Shown piece by piece: positions 15,668 through 25,331 of a DNA stretch of 41,212 nt (within the stretch, counting starts at the first letter, position 1; every line of letters starts with the position of its first letter). The translations under genes and the position numbers were made by a program. The DNA is taken from the NCBI GenBank assembly GCA_002707605.1, contig PANK01000001.1, forward strand, positions 1,472,050 to 1,513,261, in the 5' to 3' direction. The notes under the pieces were generated by a model. It searched no databases. It saw only the letters and a program-made list of their open reading frames with translations, and was not told the origin of the DNA. This stretch comes from Hoeflea sp. Lineage in GTDB: Bacteria; Pseudomonadota; Alphaproteobacteria; Rhizobiales; Rhizobiaceae.

Positions 15668-16978
15668 TCAGACGTAACGATTGACGATGTTTTCGAGATA
15701 CTCCTGACGGCCGGAGCGCGGTTCGGGATTGATGTTTTCCCGCTCCACCTTCTCGGCGATCTGCTCAAGCGTGTATTCACCCTTGAGCATCTTCTGCGCT
15801 TCGGCGCCGTCCCAGTCGGCGTATCGCTCGTCAAGCGGCTTCTGCAGCGCGCCGTCCTCGACCATCTTCGCGGCGGCCTTCAAGCCGCGGGCACAACAAT
15901 CCATGCCGCCGATGTGAGCAATCAGCAGATCTTCCGGATCGATTGACTGGCGGCGCAGCTTGGCATCGAAATTCGTGCCGCCGGTGGTGAACCCGCCGGC
16001 CTTGAGCACTTGGTAATAGGCCAGAGCCATTTCAGGCACGTTATTGGGGAACTGATCGGTATCCCAGCCCGACTGATAGTCGTTCCGGTTCATGTCGATC
16101 GAACCGAAGATGCCGAGCGTGGATGCGAGTGCCAGTTCGTGCTCGAAGGTGTGACCGGCAAGGATCGCATGCCCCTGCTCGATGTTCATCTTCACCTCGT
16201 TCTCAAGTCCGTACTTCTTGAGGAACCCGTAAACGGTCGCGACATCATAGTCGTACTGGTGCTTGGTCGGCTCCTGCGGCTTCGGCTCGACCAGGATCGC
16301 GCCCTTGAAGCCGATCTTGTGCTTGTAGTCGACCACCATGTGAAGCATGCGCGCCATCTGGTCGAACTCGCGGCCCATATCGGTGTTGAGCAGCGTCTCG
16401 TAACCCTCGCGGCCACCCCAGAGCACGTAGTTCTGGCCGCCGAGCTTCATGGTGGCATCCATGCAGGACTTGATCGTGGCTGCCGAGTAGGCAAACACAT
16501 CCGGATCCGGATTGGTCGAGGCACCGCTCATGAAGCGGCGATTCGAGAACAGGTTGGCCGTGCCCCAGAGAAGCTTGATGCCGGTCTCTTCCTGCTTCTG
16601 CGCGAAATAGTCGACGATCTCGTCGAGATTCTTCTTGCTCTCGGCGAAGGTGCTGCCTTCGGGACGTGCGTCGGCGTCGTGGAAGCAGTAGTAGGGCACG
16701 CCGAGAATCTTGAACATCTCGAAGGCGACATCGGCTTTCAGCTTGGCCTTGTCCATTTCCCCGTCATACCAGGGACGATCGAAGGTCCGTCCGCCAAACG
16801 GGTCGCCGCCTTCCCAGGCAAAGGAGTGCCAGTAGGCCACTGCAAAACGGAGGTGATCTTCCATCCGCTTGCCCATGACGACCTCTTCCGGATCGTAGAA
16901 GCGATAGGAGAGCGGGTCGGTTGAATCCGCGCCCTTGAACGGAATTTTCTCGATATTACCGAAAAAGCCGGTTCCCAT
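15668..16978 (-). CDS. xylA: Xylose isomerase
   Basis: [81 protein letters not shown]. Confidence 0.98.
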
Positions 16979-17008
16979 TTGGTTTCCTTCCCTATGGTTG
17001 GTGGTGTG

Positions 17009-17031
17009 GGCGGCCTTCAAGCGAGGCCGCC
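17009..17031 (-). other. Intercistronic hairpin between xylG and xylA
   Basis: GGCGGCCT-tcaagcg-AGGCCGCC perfect 8-bp stem in the 63-nt gap. Confidence 0.6.
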
Positions 17032-17041
17032 TCGTTGTCTT

Positions 17042-17829
<788 letters not shown>

Positions 17830-17830
<1 letters not shown>

Positions 17831-19125
17831 TACTTCGCTCCCGTACGCATGCGGTAGATCGTGTCGATAAGGACGGCAATCACGAGAACCGCGCCGACGA
17901 CAATGTTCTGGAAAGGTGCATCGACGCCGACCATGGCCATGCCTGACTGCAGCGACTGCATGATCAACGCACCGAGAATGGCGCCATAGATCGTGCCGAC
18001 GCCACCGGCGAGCGCGGTGCCGCCGATGACGGCTGCGGCGATGACCCGGAGCTCATCAAGCGTGCCGATATCGTTCGAGTGGAACGACAGGCGTGCCGAG
18101 GCGACCAGTGCCGCCAGTCCGCACAACCCGCCCATGATGGCGAAGATCTTGACAGTCAGCAGCCGGGTGTTGATGCCGGACAGCTCGGCCGCATCCGGGT
18201 TGCCACCGGTTGCGAAGATATAGCGGCCAAGGCGGGTGCGCCGGGCGACGATCGTCATGACAATGGCGACGGCGATCAGCAGCAGAACCGAGATCGGCAG
18301 CCCATAGCCCTGGGTAAATCCGTCCGGCATAACCTCGCCGCGTGCCTCGAACATCTGCTGCAGCCTACGGCGTGGAACGTCGTAATTGTTCAGCACGGCA
18401 ACGAAGCCGAGGATTGCGATGGCGGTGATGCCGGCCATGACCACTTCAGCCCAGACCGGCTTGACCGGAAACTCATGGGCAATTTTGCTGCGGCGGCTGC
18501 GCCAGAACGAGTAGAAGGCGAAAAGCACGGCGATGATGCCGATGATCCAGCTCCAGGTTTCGCCAAGCGTGCCGTTGATACCGCCGAACTGCATGAAATT
18601 GCGGTCGAGCGGGCCGATCGTCTGACCGTTTGTCAGATACCAGGCGACGTTGCGCCATACGAGAAGTCCGCCGAGCGTGACGATAAAGGCCGGCACACCG
18701 AGATACCCGATGATATAGCCCTGGAACGCGCCGATCACGACGCCAGTCGCAATACCGACAACGATGGCAATCGGAGCGGTTGCCGGATGGTTCAGCCCAA
18801 GGCCGAAAACTTCAGGCGTGATGAACGTCTGGGTCATCGCCATCACCGCCGAGCAGGTGGCCAGCAGCGAACCGACAGACAGGTCGATATTGCGGGTGAC
18901 GATCACGAACACCATGCCGGTTGCCATGATGGCAACGCTGACGGTCTGGATGGTCAGGTTGAAGATATTTCGCGAGGTCAGAAACCTGCCGTCGGTCACG
19001 AGATGAAAACCAATGCACAGGATGATGAACGCGCCGATCATGCCGAGAAGGCGCGTATCGAGTTCGAGCTGTGCGAAGAGGTTTTTCTTTTGCGCCGGGC
19101 GGGCTGGCTTGTCAGCGTCAGTCAT
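17830..19125 (-). CDS. xylH: Xylose ABC transporter permease
   Basis: Many TM segments; [75 protein letters not shown]. Confidence 0.9.
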
Positions 19126-19214: not shown

Positions 19215-20246
19215 TTAGTTGCAGGGAGCCGGGCCGTCGGTGACACCCTGGCAGAGATCTTCCTTGCTGATCCAGCCCGCGTCGACGACGGTCTCAAGGT
19301 TGTCCTTGGTCACCGGAACCGGCTTGAGGAACTTGGCCCAAAGCTCGGTGCCTGCCGGCGAGGTCCACTTTTCTGCGCCCTCGATGTCCGACATTGCGGT
19401 GCCGCGCGCCAGTTCGACGGCAATCTTGCCGGCTTCATGGCCGAGTTCACGCGCGTCCTTCCAGACGGAGACGGTCTGGGTGCCCTTGGCAACGCGGTTC
19501 AGCGCAGCGTGGTCGCCATCCTGGCCGGAGACCGGGATACCTTCCATGCCCTGAGCGGTCAGAGCCGCAACAGCGCCACCTGCAGTACCGTCGTTCGAAG
19601 CCACAACGGCATCGACTTCGTTGTTCTGCGCGGTCAGGATCTGCTCCATATTGCGCTGAGCGTTGGCCGGAAGCCAGCCGTCGGTGTAGGCTTCGTCGAC
19701 GATCTTGACCTTGCCGGCATCGATGGCTTCCTGCAGGACTTCCTGCTGGCCGCCACGAAGGAAGTCGGCGTTCGGGTCGGTCGGCGAGCCCTTGATCATG
19801 ACGTAGTTGCCTTCCGGAGCCGCTTCGAGAACGGCGCGAGCCTGCATGCGGCCGACTTCGACGTTGTCGAAGGTCAGGTAGAAGGCGCGGCTGTCTTCGA
19901 TGAGACGGTCGTAACCGACGACCGGAATGCCATTGTCAGCAGCAGACTGGACAGCCGGGCCGATGGCCTGGGAGTCCTGAGCCAAAATGATCAGGCCGTC
20001 GATGCCCTGAGCAATGAGGCTTTCGATGTCGGACAGCTGCTTGGACGAGGAGCTCTGCGCGTCGGTGGAAACGTATTTCGCTCCCATTTCCTCAAGCGCC
20101 TTCTTGATGGCTGCTTCGTCGGTTTTCCAGCGCTCTTCCTGAAAGTTCGACCAGGACACGCCGATGGTTTCGCCTTCGGCCATAGCCGCAGTCGAAACGC
20201 TCATGGCCAGCGCGAAGCCGGCCAGTGCCAGAATGCTCTTCTTCAT
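19215..20246 (-). CDS. xylF: Xylose ABC transporter periplasmic substrate-binding protein
   Basis: Signal peptide MKKSILALAGFALAMSVSTAAMA; periplasmic sugar-binding motifs (IPVVGYDRLIEDS; AVVASNDGTAGGAVAALTAQGMEGIPVSGQDGD). GAGGAAAC RBS; start revised to 20246. Confidence 0.93.
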   Translation of the reverse strand: MKKSILALAGFALAMSVSTAAMAEGETIGVSWSNFQEERWKTDEAAIKKALEEMGAKYVSTDAQSSSSKQLSDIESLIAQGIDGLIILAQDSQAIGPAVQSAADNGIPVVGYDRLIEDSRAFYLTFDNVEVGRMQARAVLEAAPEGNYVMIKGSPTDPNADFLRGGQQEVLQEAIDAGKVKIVDEAYTDGWLPANAQRNMEQILTAQNNEVDAVVASNDGTAGGAVAALTAQGMEGIPVSGQDGDHAALNRVAKGTQTVSVWKDARELGHEAGKIAVELARGTAMSDIEGAEKWTSPAGTELWAKFLKPVPVTKDNLETVVDAGWISKEDLCQGVTDGPAPCN

Positions 20247-20429
20247 AGTTTCCTCCCGAATGCGCCCGAACAAAGGGGCGCGAATAAACTCTTCGATAGT
20301 CCGGCCCTCCCCTTCTCCCGCCAAATGCAATCAAGGAGAATGATCCGGACGACCCTTTAATTCGAGGGTCAAAAAAAAGAGTGACGCACGGCCCGGGCTG
20401 TGTCAAGGTGAATCTTCAACCGGCTAACT

Positions 20430-20460
20430 CATTGCGCTGCAACAATGTTTTGCTGCAATG
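20430..20460. promoter_or_regulatory. Candidate ROK (XylR) operator
   Basis: CATTGC-N5-AACA-a-TGTT-N5-GCAATG: inner and outer half-sites share one dyad axis, in the divergent xylF/xylR intergenic region. Confidence 0.65.
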
Positions 20461-20498
20461 CCAAAAAAGCGAGGGCCGGCCATGGGAGGAAATCACGG

Positions 20499-21755
20499 AT
20501 GACACTCATCGCCCGCTCGGACGATTTGCGTCGGGAAAACCAGCGTCGGGTGCTCGCCGCACTGCGCGCCGACAGTCCGCTGTCGCGCACCGAACTCGCT
20601 GCCGCGACCGGGCTCAGCGCATCGACGGTGACCACGATCACCAGCTCGCTTCTGGCCGCCGATTATCTGGTGGAAGCGCCGCGCAAGGATGGCGGCACGG
20701 GCGAGGAAGCGCTTTCACGCCGCGGGCGGCCGCAGGTCGCGCTGGCGCTCAATCCCAAATCCGCCTCCATTGGTGCGCTGACACTTACGCTCAACCGCCT
20801 TTCCGCTGTCCTCGTCGACTACTCCGGCAGCGTCATCCTCGAAGTCACCGAAAAGGTTGAAACGCAGAGCCTGGCGCGGGACGAATTCGGCCGGCGCTTT
20901 GTGTCGCTGCTGAAAAAAGCCGTCGATGATGCGGGGCCCTCGGCGGGACCGCTTCGTCACGTTGCACTGACGGTCCAGGGTGTGAGTGACGCCAAGGGCA
21001 CGCGCATCCACTGGTCGCCGATCCTGCGGCACCGCGATCTGCAGATCGACGAAGATCTGAGCGAGGCCTTCGGCACCTCCGTCTCGATCGCCAACGATGC
21101 CAACATGATCGCCACCGCGCTCAAGTCACGCGAACCCCATATCTATGACCAGTCCTATGCGGCGATCCTCCTGTCGCATGGTATCGGCATGGGTCTGGTG
21201 CTCGGCGGACGTCCGTTCAACGGCATTCTCACCTCGGCCGCCGAGTTCGGCCATATGTGCCACATCCCGCAAGGCGCGCTCTGCCGCTGCGGCCGCCACG
21301 GCTGCATCGAGGCCTATGCCGGAGACTACGGGATCTGGCGCACGGCGACCGGCGGCGATCCGGAAGTCGTCCCTGACTGGGACATCGATCGGGAGAAGAT
21401 GGCCGAGCTTGCAAGCCGGGCGAAGGCAGGCGACCTGAATGTAAGGGATGCCTACACCTCGGCAGCTTCCGCCATCGGCCACGGCCTGCGCAACCTCTTT
21501 ACCCTGCTCGATCCGTTCCCGATCGCCTTCGTGGGATCCGGCGTGCTGGCATTCGACCTGATGGAACCGATGATCCGCACCTCGCTGGGGCGGAAAGGGA
21601 TCGGGCTTGCCTATGATGACGCTGAATTTCACTGTTACGAGAACGACCTGGAACTCACCCTCCTCGGCACCATCGTCACCGGGCTGACCACGCTCGACCG
21701 ATCACTGCCGGTCAACAAGGAAGCGGCGGGAGGCGATTATGCGACTGCGGGATGA
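20499..21755 (+). CDS. xylR: ROK-family transcriptional repressor (xylose regulator)
   Basis: N-terminal wHTH (LSRTELAAATGLSASTVTTITSSLL), ROK domain (ILLSHGIGMGLVLGGRPFNGI; CRCGRHGCIEAYAG); GGAGGA RBS. Confidence 0.88.
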   Translation: MTLIARSDDLRRENQRRVLAALRADSPLSRTELAAATGLSASTVTTITSSLLAADYLVEAPRKDGGTGEEALSRRGRPQVALALNPKSASIGALTLTLNRLSAVLVDYSGSVILEVTEKVETQSLARDEFGRRFVSLLKKAVDDAGPSAGPLRHVALTVQGVSDAKGTRIHWSPILRHRDLQIDEDLSEAFGTSVSIANDANMIATALKSREPHIYDQSYAAILLSHGIGMGLVLGGRPFNGILTSAAEFGHMCHIPQGALCRCGRHGCIEAYAGDYGIWRTATGGDPEVVPDWDIDREKMAELASRAKAGDLNVRDAYTSAASAIGHGLRNLFTLLDPFPIAFVGSGVLAFDLMEPMIRTSLGRKGIGLAYDDAEFHCYENDLELTLLGTIVTGLTTLDRSLPVNKEAAGGDYATAG

Positions 21756-23178
21756 TCTGACGGCGGGCCTCGTTGTGGCGATGGGCCTTGCGACCACCCT
21801 CCCCGCCCTGGCCGATGGCACCAAGCTGCCAGCCCCTTGGGAAGAGCGGGCGATCAGCGCACCGCTCGACCGGGCGGATTTTTCGGGCACGTTGACGCGC
21901 GAGAAGCTCGACGAGTTGACGACCGTTGGGGAGCATCTGTTCGGTGCGCATTTCACGCCGCTTGACGGCGTCGGTCGTCCGATGGCGACACAGGCGATCA
22001 TCCCGACCAAGCGGCGGCGCGAAACCCGCCTTTCCTTCCAGCGGATGGCCGGCATGGATGCCGCGTCCTGCGCGAGCTGCCACAACATGCCGGTCGCGGG
22101 CGGTGCCGGTGACTTCGTCGCCAATGTCTTCGTCTCGGAAGGGTTTTCGAACGCCGATTTCGATTCCATCGACCCGCAATTCTCCAACGAGCGCAATACC
22201 AATCACCTCTTCGGCGCCGGGCTGATCGAACTGCTTGCCCGCGAGATGACGGTTGACCTGCAAGCAATCCGCAATGAAGCCGCCAGACAGGCGCGCGCCA
22301 GTGGCGAAACCGTCACGCTGCCGCTCGAGACGAAGGGCGTTTCCTTCGGGTCGATCACGGTGGAAGCCGACGGCATGGTCGATCTGTCGGGTCTCGATGG
22401 CGTCGACACCGATCTCGTCATCCGCCCGTTCAGCCAGAAAGGTGTGATGACCTCGCTCAGGCAGTTTACCGTCAACGCGCTGAATCAGCACCATGGCATG
22501 CAGTCGACCGAACGTTTTGGCGCACGCTGGACGGGCGAAATCGACTATGACGAAGACGGCAAGGGTGACGAAATCTCGCCGGGCGATGTCTCCGCCATGG
22601 TGGCCTGGCAGGCAACGCTCGAGCCGCCCTTCGCAAAGGTGCCTGAAGACGAAGAATGGCGGGCGGCTTCGGCCAATGGCGACAAGCTGTTCGATACGAT
22701 CGGCTGTTCCTCCTGCCATATCCGCGCACTGCCGCTGTCATCGCTCAAGTTCGCCGACCCCGGTCCTGTCGATGCCGCGGGAACGCTGCGCGGCGATGAA
22801 GACGGTGCGGCTGCTGTCTACGATCTCGGGCTTTATGAATGGGCGTCGCTGCTCGCACGCAACGACAAGGGCGAGGTGATGGTGCCGCTCTTCGGCGACC
22901 TCAAGCGCCACCGCATCGCCGATCAGAAAGTCGCCGTCCTCGGCAATGAACTGCTGGCCCAGCGCTTTGTCGACCGCGATGTCTTCATGACCAGCGAATT
23001 ATGGGGCATCGCTGATACCGGGCCTTACGGTCATCGCGGCGACCTGACGACGCTCGACGAAGTCATCCGCGCCCATGGGGGCGAAGGCTCGCAATCGGCC
23101 CGTGCCTATGAAGCGCTTCCGGACGCGGACCGCTCCGCACTCATCGCCTTTCTCAAGACACTGGTGATCGAACGATGA
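21739..23178 (+). CDS. Exported di-haem oxidoreductase / putative peroxidase (DHOR, DUF1111-like)
   Basis: Signal peptide (LTAGLVVAMGLATTLPALA); two CxxCH haem sites (CASCHNMP, CSSCHIRA); C-terminal GPYGHRGDLTTLDEVIRAHGGEG. Start lies 17 nt inside xylR. Confidence 0.88.
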   Translation: MRLRDDLTAGLVVAMGLATTLPALADGTKLPAPWEERAISAPLDRADFSGTLTREKLDELTTVGEHLFGAHFTPLDGVGRPMATQAIIPTKRRRETRLSFQRMAGMDAASCASCHNMPVAGGAGDFVANVFVSEGFSNADFDSIDPQFSNERNTNHLFGAGLIELLAREMTVDLQAIRNEAARQARASGETVTLPLETKGVSFGSITVEADGMVDLSGLDGVDTDLVIRPFSQKGVMTSLRQFTVNALNQHHGMQSTERFGARWTGEIDYDEDGKGDEISPGDVSAMVAWQATLEPPFAKVPEDEEWRAASANGDKLFDTIGCSSCHIRALPLSSLKFADPGPVDAAGTLRGDEDGAAAVYDLGLYEWASLLARNDKGEVMVPLFGDLKRHRIADQKVAVLGNELLAQRFVDRDVFMTSELWGIADTGPYGHRGDLTTLDEVIRAHGGEGSQSARAYEALPDADRSALIAFLKTLVIER

Positions 23179-24854
23179 ACCGTTCATGGCTCACATCCCT
23201 CCTCGCCGTCCCTGTGGTTCTGCTGGCCGGACCGCTTACGGCATCCGGCGAAGAGGCCGTTTCGGAAGAGCGGAATGTCCCGATGGATGTGCCGCTCATG
23301 GTGGAAGAGGCACTTCAGGCAGGGATCGACCACAGCTATGTCGGCCCGTGGGAATTCTTCGTCGGCGGCGGCGCCGCAGGTCTCGACTGCAATGGCGACC
23401 GCAAGACCGATCTCTTCATTGCCGGCGGCAAGAACCCGGCGGGTCTCTATGTCAATCGATCAGCGACAGGCGGCGAACTCAAATTCGAGAAGACCGAGAC
23501 CGGGCTCGACGACACGGTGATGACCAATGTCACCGGCGCCTATCCGATCGATATCGACAATGACGGTTACAAGGATCTCGTGGTCCTTCGCGTCGGCCGC
23601 AATGCGATCCTCAAGGGCGGACCGGGCTGCACGTTCACCAATGCCTCGCGGCAGTTCGCCTATGACGGTGGCCGCGAGTGGACCACCGCCTTCGCAGCCA
23701 CGTTCGAGGAAGACGCGACTTTTCCCACACTCGCTTTCGGCAATTATGTCGACCGCTCCGCACCGGGCTCCCCTTGGGGCACCTGCCATGACAACGACTT
23801 CTTCCGCTCGCAAACTCAAGGCAAGGAAGCGGCACCGGACTATTCGCTGCGGACGGCCCTGTCGCCAGGCTATTGCGCGCTCTCGATGTTGTTCACCGAC
23901 TGGGACCGGACCGGCAAGGCCGATCTCAGATTCACCAACGACCGGCAATATTATCGCGGCGGCGAGGAGCAGCTCTGGAAGATGGATCCTGACCGTCCGC
24001 CGCGCCTCTATCGATCGTCCGAAGGCTGGCGCCACGTCACCATCTGGGGCATGGGGATCGCCGAGGCTGACCTGAATGCCGATGGCTATCCGGAATATGC
24101 CCTGACCTCGATGGGCGATACCAAGTTGCAGACGCTTGACGAGGACGCCGAGGAAGGCCGTCCGGTCTATCGCGACGTGGCCTTCGAAAAAGGCGCTACC
24201 GCCCAGCGCCCCTATGTCGGCGAAGCAATCCGCCCCTCGACCGGCTGGCATGCGGAATTCGACGACTTCAACAATGATGGCAATCTCGACCTCTTCATCG
24301 CCAAGGGCAATGTCGAGCAGATGCCGGATTTCGCGGCCTTCGACCCGGACAACCTGCTGCTCGGCACGTTCGACGGCAAATTCGTCGAGGCGGGAGATCT
24401 CGCAGGCATCGACAAGCCGACCAAGGGGCGCGGTGCCGTGGTCGCCGACTTCAACAATGACGGCATGCTCGATCTCCTGGTGGTCAATCGCGGCGGTCCG
24501 GCGAGCCTCTTCCGCAACGCCGGCGGGCGCGCTCAAGATGGCGGCGCGGCGCGGCAGATGGGCAACTGGCTGGAGATCGAATTGAAGCAGAAGGGCGCGA
24601 ATCCTGATGCGATCGGCGCGCGGGTTTCAGTCAAGAGCGGAAACGAGACGCGCGTGCGCACGATTGCCGTGGGTGGCGGTCACGCCTCGGGACGGCTCGG
24701 CTTCGTCCATGTCGGCCTCGGCGTTGCCGAACGCGCGCAGATCCGCGTGCAGTGGCCGGACGGCGAATGGAGCGCGCCCTACCGCGTCTTCGCCAACCAG
24801 TTCGTTCGCATCGACCGGGACGCGCCCCAGGCCAGATACTGGCTGCCGGAGTAA
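23175..24854 (+). CDS. Exported FG-GAP repeat / ASPIC-UnbV (CRTAC1-like) protein
   Basis: Signal peptide; Ca-binding FG-GAP motifs (DIDNDGYKDL, DFNNDGNLDLF, DFNNDGMLDLL); C-terminal ASPIC/UnbV (GARVSVKSGNETRVRTIAVGGGHASGRLGFVHVGLG). Confidence 0.88.
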   Translation: MNRSWLTSLLAVPVVLLAGPLTASGEEAVSEERNVPMDVPLMVEEALQAGIDHSYVGPWEFFVGGGAAGLDCNGDRKTDLFIAGGKNPAGLYVNRSATGGELKFEKTETGLDDTVMTNVTGAYPIDIDNDGYKDLVVLRVGRNAILKGGPGCTFTNASRQFAYDGGREWTTAFAATFEEDATFPTLAFGNYVDRSAPGSPWGTCHDNDFFRSQTQGKEAAPDYSLRTALSPGYCALSMLFTDWDRTGKADLRFTNDRQYYRGGEEQLWKMDPDRPPRLYRSSEGWRHVTIWGMGIAEADLNADGYPEYALTSMGDTKLQTLDEDAEEGRPVYRDVAFEKGATAQRPYVGEAIRPSTGWHAEFDDFNNDGNLDLFIAKGNVEQMPDFAAFDPDNLLLGTFDGKFVEAGDLAGIDKPTKGRGAVVADFNNDGMLDLLVVNRGGPASLFRNAGGRAQDGGAARQMGNWLEIELKQKGANPDAIGARVSVKSGNETRVRTIAVGGGHASGRLGFVHVGLGVAERAQIRVQWPDGEWSAPYRVFANQFVRIDRDAPQARYWLPE

Positions 24855-24908
24855 AGCTGCACTAGATCTGGAGAAGCTACCTCTCCAGCAGTGACAGTCA
24901 GGACCGAC

Positions 24909-25331
24909 ATGCCCCAGACCAGACTTTCCATCTCGACGCGCGGACAGGGACTTTACGAGTTCACCCACGCGATCGAGGAATTCGTTGCTGACCACGGTAG
25001 CGACGAGGGGCTTCTGACCGTCTTCGTGCGTCACACCTCCTGCTCGCTGCTGATCCAGGAAAATGCCGACCCCGACGTGCAGCGCGATCTGCAATCATTC
25101 TTCTCGAGGCTGGTGCCGCCGAGCGATGATCCATCAATGAGCTGGGTCGTCCACACGATGGAGGGGCCGGACGACATGCCCGCCCACATCAAAGCCGCAC
25201 TTAACCAGGTATCGCTGTCCATTCCGGTTACCGAGGGGCGTCTCGCACTCGGCACCTGGCAGGGGATCTATCTCTTCGAGCACCGCGATAGGCCGCACCG
25301 ACGCGAGATCGTGCTGCATCTCTCACACTGA
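24909..25331 (+). CDS. yjbQ: YjbQ-family (UPF0047) protein
   Basis: VRHTSCSLLIQENADPDVQRDLQSFFSRLVP; LGTWQGIYLFEHRDRPHRREIVLHL. Confidence 0.93.
   Translation: MPQTRLSISTRGQGLYEFTHAIEEFVADHGSDEGLLTVFVRHTSCSLLIQENADPDVQRDLQSFFSRLVPPSDDPSMSWVVHTMEGPDDMPAHIKAALNQVSLSIPVTEGRLALGTWQGIYLFEHRDRPHRREIVLHLSH

Follow-up and report, generated by a model that had tools for sequence, protein, structure and literature searches.

Why would a ROK-family repressor gene placed beside xylose genes run straight into the genes of two exported redox-type proteins? The question is raised by a stretch of 41,212 nucleotides from Hoeflea sp. (hereafter, the window), and the features concerned are collected in Table 1. 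The answer inferred here is a xylose-induced periplasmic module, i.e., a xylose-controlled operon of ROK repressor, peroxidase, and UnbV protein, in which the exported pair is made with the importer and the peroxidase handles H2O2 for or with the UnbV protein. A probability of roughly 0.55 was given to this reading, and its chemistry is unproven.

Table 1. Features of the window, with positions counted from its first nucleotide.
Feature	Position	Strand	Basis
xylA, xylose isomerase	15668..17020	-	TIGR02630 703.6 bits, cut-off 533.25
xylG-type ATPase, single ABC domain	17042..17830	-	Profile matches
xylH-type CUT2 permease	17830..19125	-	Profile matches
xylF, D-xylose binding protein	19215..20246	-	TIGR02634 478.6 bits, cut-off 389.55
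ROK-type operator CTTTAATTCGAGGGTCAAAAAAAAG	20355..20379		34.1 bits in PWM
xylF promoter TTGACA-N17-CACTCT	20378..20406	-	-10 overlaps operator
ROK-family repressor (XylR-type), HTH and sugar-kinase-like domain	20499..21755	+	Pfam, CxCGxxGCxE motif, divergent to xylF
Exported di-haem peroxidase-like protein (divergent DHOR / CCP-MauG superfamily)	21739..23178	+	Two CxxCH, His446 at axial-ligand position
Exported FG-GAP / UnbV-ASPIC (CRTAC1-like) protein, conserved core of the module	23175..24854	+	Pfam, CRTAC1 match, 96 conserved residues
yjbQ, judged not part of the module	24909..25331	+	Linkage confined to own genus

By Pfam search, a ROK domain (109.6 bits) and an N-terminal HTH_24 were found in the repressor, and the yjbQ product was assigned to UPF0047/YjbQ (135 bits). 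The UnbV product met the test for a CRTAC1 or UnbV-ASPIC protein, i.e., FG-GAP repeats (76.9 bits) and a UnbV_ASPIC domain above its cut-off (42 bits against 23.4). The test for a D-xylose importer was also met, i.e., XylF passed its equivalog cut-off. The xylA ORF begins with TTG, and its real start is probably somewhat further in. No matches were obtained in the PHROGs search. Both exported proteins carry plausible Sec-type signal peptides, as the preliminary description had proposed from the sequence alone, although this was judged by inspection only, without a predictor.

The same description had read the three genes as tightly coupled, and the coordinates agree. The ROK ORF has a GGGAGG upstream at 20484-20489. 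The di-haem gene starts inside the ROK frame with a 17-nt overlap at 21739 and its own GGGAGG at 21728-21733, 5 nt before the ATG, and the UnbV gene starts in an ATGA overlap with the di-haem stop at 23175-23178. By ORF-based gaps in the relatives, 44 of 47 loci have ROK and di-haem genes that overlap or are spaced by at most 4 nt; between peroxidase and UnbV genes, the gap is exactly -4 in 59 of 88. Where a vanadium haloperoxidase (VHPO) gene follows ROK, the gap is -4 or -28 in six loci, and ROK and UnbV genes with no peroxidase between them mostly overlap or abut as well. A few loci were counted twice, as one genome can have duplicate records. Start codons were assigned by rule, so that single overlaps are possibly wrong. 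Because the spacing is kept among relatives, the overlaps are not chance. The three genes are likely one operon, but co-transcription is inferred and no expression data exist. yjbQ had been placed next in the same row. Its spacing is as described, i.e., 54 nt separate the UnbV stop from the ATG (the gene could also start at an in-frame GTG, at 24891), but linkage was absent beyond its own genus, where it was seen in L002 and L003. It was therefore excluded as an operon member.

Neighbourhoods of UnbV relatives were drawn from family, order, class, and phylum samples. XylF is encoded within 6 kb of UnbV in 88 of 111 distinct loci, which span family, order, and class. Outside the class, a single genome (L223) carries xylBAFHG, UnbV, and VHPO genes in one row. 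In the family sample, each of the 121 genomes with a strong UnbV match also has XylF, versus 95 of 178 without UnbV (Fisher p 7e-24, phylogeny not corrected for), and 61 of 71 checked UnbV-XylF pairs are at most 8 kb apart. XylF-linked members occur in all three UnbV clades, and nearly all linked relatives have ROK and xylF in divergent orientation. The position of the pair varies: it is 3' of xylG in L132-L135, between xylBA and xylFHG in L136, and convergent with ROK in L069-L075. The neighbourhood conservation search, suggested earlier as a check, thus gave strong co-occurrence, the opposite of the outcome that would have refuted the arrangement. The gene order that was noted is confirmed far beyond chance.

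Simple inheritance can explain synteny within one clade, and ROK-xylFHG could be a conserved block in which the exported genes are retained by descent without any joint function. The 95 family genomes with XylF and no UnbV fit such hitch-hiking. However, no UnbV-bearing genome of the family lacks XylF, the gene overlaps are conserved, and the pair stays beside xylFHG in several gene orders, in different orientations, and with any of three partner types, which makes this explanation very unlikely. Two side observations concern gene placement. The best xylB candidate of the Hoeflea genome (57% identity) is on another contig (C4:94325-95779), and in many relatives xylB is beside xylA. In L072, L069, and relatives, genes of PhoU, a PhoB-type regulator, and a phosphate-type ABC transporter adjoin the VHPO-UnbV pair on the side away from xylF.

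The repressor met the test for a ROK repressor of xylose genes, i.e., a ROK domain with an N-terminal HTH, divergent from xylose genes, with an operator between. A common 25-bp palindrome with the consensus ATTTTTTTCGAGCCTCGAAAAAAAT was found in 76 of 76 xylF-ROK intergenic regions, and it was these same 76 regions that built the motif. Zero matches were found in shuffled loci. The site of the window, for which 0.01 would be expected by chance in the window, is the better of two in the genome. A promoter TTGACA-N17-CACT(A/C)T facing xylF, with its -10 overlapped by the operator, was observed in 55 of the 76 intergenic regions. A sigma-70 scan gave no matches, because the -10 of this promoter is CACTCT. 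The operator is an AT-rich palindrome with a CGA...TCG core, which we take to resemble Mlc/NagC sites.

Three other sites were noted. The second operator-like palindrome of the genome, with two mismatches, is at C9:79577-79599 (L235), 3' of a CO-dehydrogenase-like gene and 5' of a dipeptide-type ABC binding protein-like gene; it was not counted as evidence. TTGC/TGCAGCAA-type repeats are found at 20430-20465, directly upstream of the ROK start, and similar ones are present in several relatives. A PhaR-like box TGCRNYGCASMA near ROK (20433 and 20451) was rejected, as 17 occur in the window versus 14.8 by chance.

The xylose link that had been proposed for the regulator is supported by synteny with xylFHG(AB) and by the conserved operator over the xylF promoter. 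The tie of the exported pair to this regulator does not hold everywhere. The operator was also found upstream of the DHOR-like gene in L164 and L177. Almost all VHPO-UnbV pairs apart from xylF are without it, although the genomes checked do carry it at xylF; over all unlinked loci, L145 is a clear exception and L181 a weak one. The absence at most unlinked pairs means that the xylose response, itself inferred, is not universal, and it is one more point for mere retention by descent. Putative control by ROK is therefore well supported where the genes are arranged as in the window, but this does not extend to every pair, and there are no binding or expression data.

The first exported protein had been labelled a di-haem oxidoreductase (DHOR). 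This label holds only in part. Two CxxCH motifs (residues 111-115 and 323-327) are conserved in aligned relatives, but the C-terminal PF06537 match covers only residues 416-475 (35 bits, above the cut-off of 22) and falls short of a full-length DHOR profile match. A canonical full-length DHOR (320 bits) is encoded elsewhere in the same genome. The protein is rather a divergent member of the CCP/MauG di-haem superfamily, the test for which was met by two CxxCH and a C-terminal PYxHxG region. In classical bacterial CCP, Met is the sixth ligand of the second haem; His446 aligns with this position, so that the test for a classical CCP was not met (by alignment only, with a weak score). The MauG/MbnH test was not met either, again by alignment only, as the window protein and the L084-type partner have His versus Tyr in 6e1c. 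The His at the position of the CCP Met and the 6e1c Tyr suggests a bis-His haem in both haem partner types, as far as alignment can tell. AlphaFold2 models built with 14 sequences each were poor (mean pLDDT 50 for the di-haem protein and 55 for UnbV), and consequently no active site was placed for either protein.

The neighbour of UnbV is not the same everywhere. Over 111 loci, it is a DHOR-like di-haem protein in 57, a VIPO1-type VHPO in 28, and a CCP/MauG-type di-haem protein in 13; the other 13 have no such neighbour. The partner types sort onto three UnbV clades (SH-aLRT 99 for VHPO, 100 for MauG, and 84 for DHOR). The VHPO partner matched Zobellia VIPO1 (E 1.6e-77) and met the test for a vanadium haloperoxidase with the vanadate set K-x6-RP, SGH, and SR-x5-H; compared with 4CIT, K323, R330, SGH359, R409, and H415 are conserved in 28 sequences. 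The MauG-type partner scored best with TIGR03981, the His-Xaa-Ser-associated MauG-like model (266.8 bits, below the cut-off of 340), and also matched MbnH. All three partner types thus belong to peroxidase families. UnbV is the constant part of the module and its neighbour is exchangeable. The window UnbV matched human CRTAC1 (9ETN, E=1.3e-18). In every partner group, 96 of its positions are conserved at 90% or more and only few are class-specific, so that what UnbV itself does seems not to depend on the partner. Four Cys, Trp358, and Trp527 are invariant, and no cofactor was recognised in the UnbV sequence.

In the proposed mechanism, the ROK repressor (XylR) would be bound to the operator between two divergent transcripts, i.e., xylFHG(A), for the xylose importer and isomerase, and an autoregulated operon of ROK, peroxidase, and UnbV. 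Xylose would release the repressor, both transcripts would rise, and the exported pair would be made alongside the importer. The propeller-type UnbV protein may be the periplasmic functional core, which would bind or process something tied to aldose uptake. The neighbouring peroxidase, probably a bis-His di-haem protein here and a vanadium iodoperoxidase or CCP/MauG-type protein elsewhere, would supply H2O2-dependent oxidation. Most likely it would consume peroxide produced by, or required for, the UnbV reaction. Gene order, gene overlaps, conservation, the operator, the exchange of partners, and intact catalytic motifs were observed; co-transcription, the xylose response, the functional or physical partnership of the two proteins, and the role of H2O2 are inferred. 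Peroxide handling was given the most weight because the use of H2O2 is common to the partner families, and the 13 of 111 UnbV loci without an adjoining peroxidase count against it. A possible precedent is Arenibacter C-21, where sugar-dependent peroxide was proposed to feed a haloperoxidase (PMC5064120).

The main rival to peroxide handling is a MauG/MbnH-like maturase, which would install an oxidative modification derived from Trp, Tyr, or Cys in UnbV, and only then would UnbV be active. MauG acts in this way on methylamine dehydrogenase and MbnH on MbnP. The adjacent and overlapping genes of the peroxidase and its would-be target fit the idea, as do the invariant Cys and Trp residues and the fact that the UnbV clade predicts the partner type. 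So does the best score of the MauG-type partner, and the weak matches of the window di-haem protein are to the same models. Yet the conserved core of UnbV is unchanged whether the neighbour carries haem, carries vanadium, or is missing, the axial position has His and not the Tyr of 6e1c, and vanadium haloperoxidases are not known to modify partner proteins. A maturase is rather unlikely on this balance.

The shared use of H2O2 would also suit a defence against a host. Here, xylose would be a cue of plant or algal tissue, the extracytoplasmic peroxidase would counter the oxidative burst of the host, and UnbV would be a scaffold or docking protein. The nearest match of the VHPO type is the iodoperoxidase of a bacterium that degrades algae, and many of the bacteria with these loci belong to genera known as marine or plant-related. 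This explanation is nevertheless doubtful, as UnbV without a peroxidase still adjoins XylF or other ABC importers (L147, L154, L155, L167, L131, L169, and L173), which links UnbV with uptake and not with peroxide.

The component families are known. The arrangement is real and conserved, and it seems not to have been described. ROK-type XylR and xylose operons (Bacillus XylR, Mlc/NagC family) have the same ROK repressor with an N-terminal HTH beside xylose genes, but the window transcript would run through overlapping genes into the exported pair. In MbnH/MbnP and MauG/methylamine dehydrogenase, the gene of a di-haem CCP-superfamily enzyme is likewise beside that of an exported partner; the window differs in its FG-GAP/UnbV partner and its axial His, and another clade swaps in a vanadium peroxidase. 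Zobellia VIPO1 (4CIT) belongs to the same family as the VHPO partner, vanadate-binding residues included, but VHPO is paired with UnbV in the xylose loci of relatives and is absent from the window. Human CRTAC1 shares the FG-GAP repeats and UnbV/ASPIC domain of the window protein but is an extracellular matrix protein, and we know of no peroxidase partner for it. In anaerobes, a CRTAC1 gene is clustered with CCP-like proteins in relatives of hydrazine synthase (PMC12758564), which shows that this combination is also met in other settings. The beta and gamma subunits of this enzyme and their relatives resemble the window pair in joining a beta-propeller to a CCP-like di-haem protein with bis-His haem (PMC12758564). 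In contrast, the window has a xylose context and no alpha subunit, and no hydrazine synthase chains were among the PDB sequence matches of the window proteins up to E=1. In a literature search that left subscription journals mostly out of scope, no paper joined UnbV with xylose or di-heme or vanadium haloperoxidase with FG-GAP, the papers found for UnbV together with peroxidase or cytochrome were all on other subjects, judged by title and abstract, and no biochemical role was found for bacterial UnbV/CRTAC1 proteins.

That the arrangement is kept despite the swap to an unrelated peroxidase points to an undescribed peroxide-dependent step beside pentose uptake. A tentative but possible extension is that UnbV is itself an enzyme of the periplasm, that it acts on pentoses or their derivatives through peroxide-linked chemistry, and that peroxidases of unrelated fold serve it interchangeably. 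If true, the bacterial UnbV/CRTAC1 family would have a function for the first time, and sugar uptake would include a new kind of peroxide-coupled step. With a UnbV subfamily linked to xylose uptake, a candidate repressor and operator, and a peroxidase slot of three types, the function becomes testable in culturable alphaproteobacteria, i.e., Hoeflea, Nitratireductor, and Mesorhizobium relatives. Away from xylF, the VHPO-UnbV pair adjoins an IlvD/EDD-family gene in L203, L211, L215, and L078, which is an L-arabinonate dehydratase by NCBIfam in L211 and L078 and by the same cluster in L203 and L215. In L131, L169, and L173, UnbV without a partner has an alpha-glucoside-type locus or genes of other ABC importers next to it, and LIV-type ABC importer genes adjoin peroxidase-less UnbV in L168, L169, and L173.
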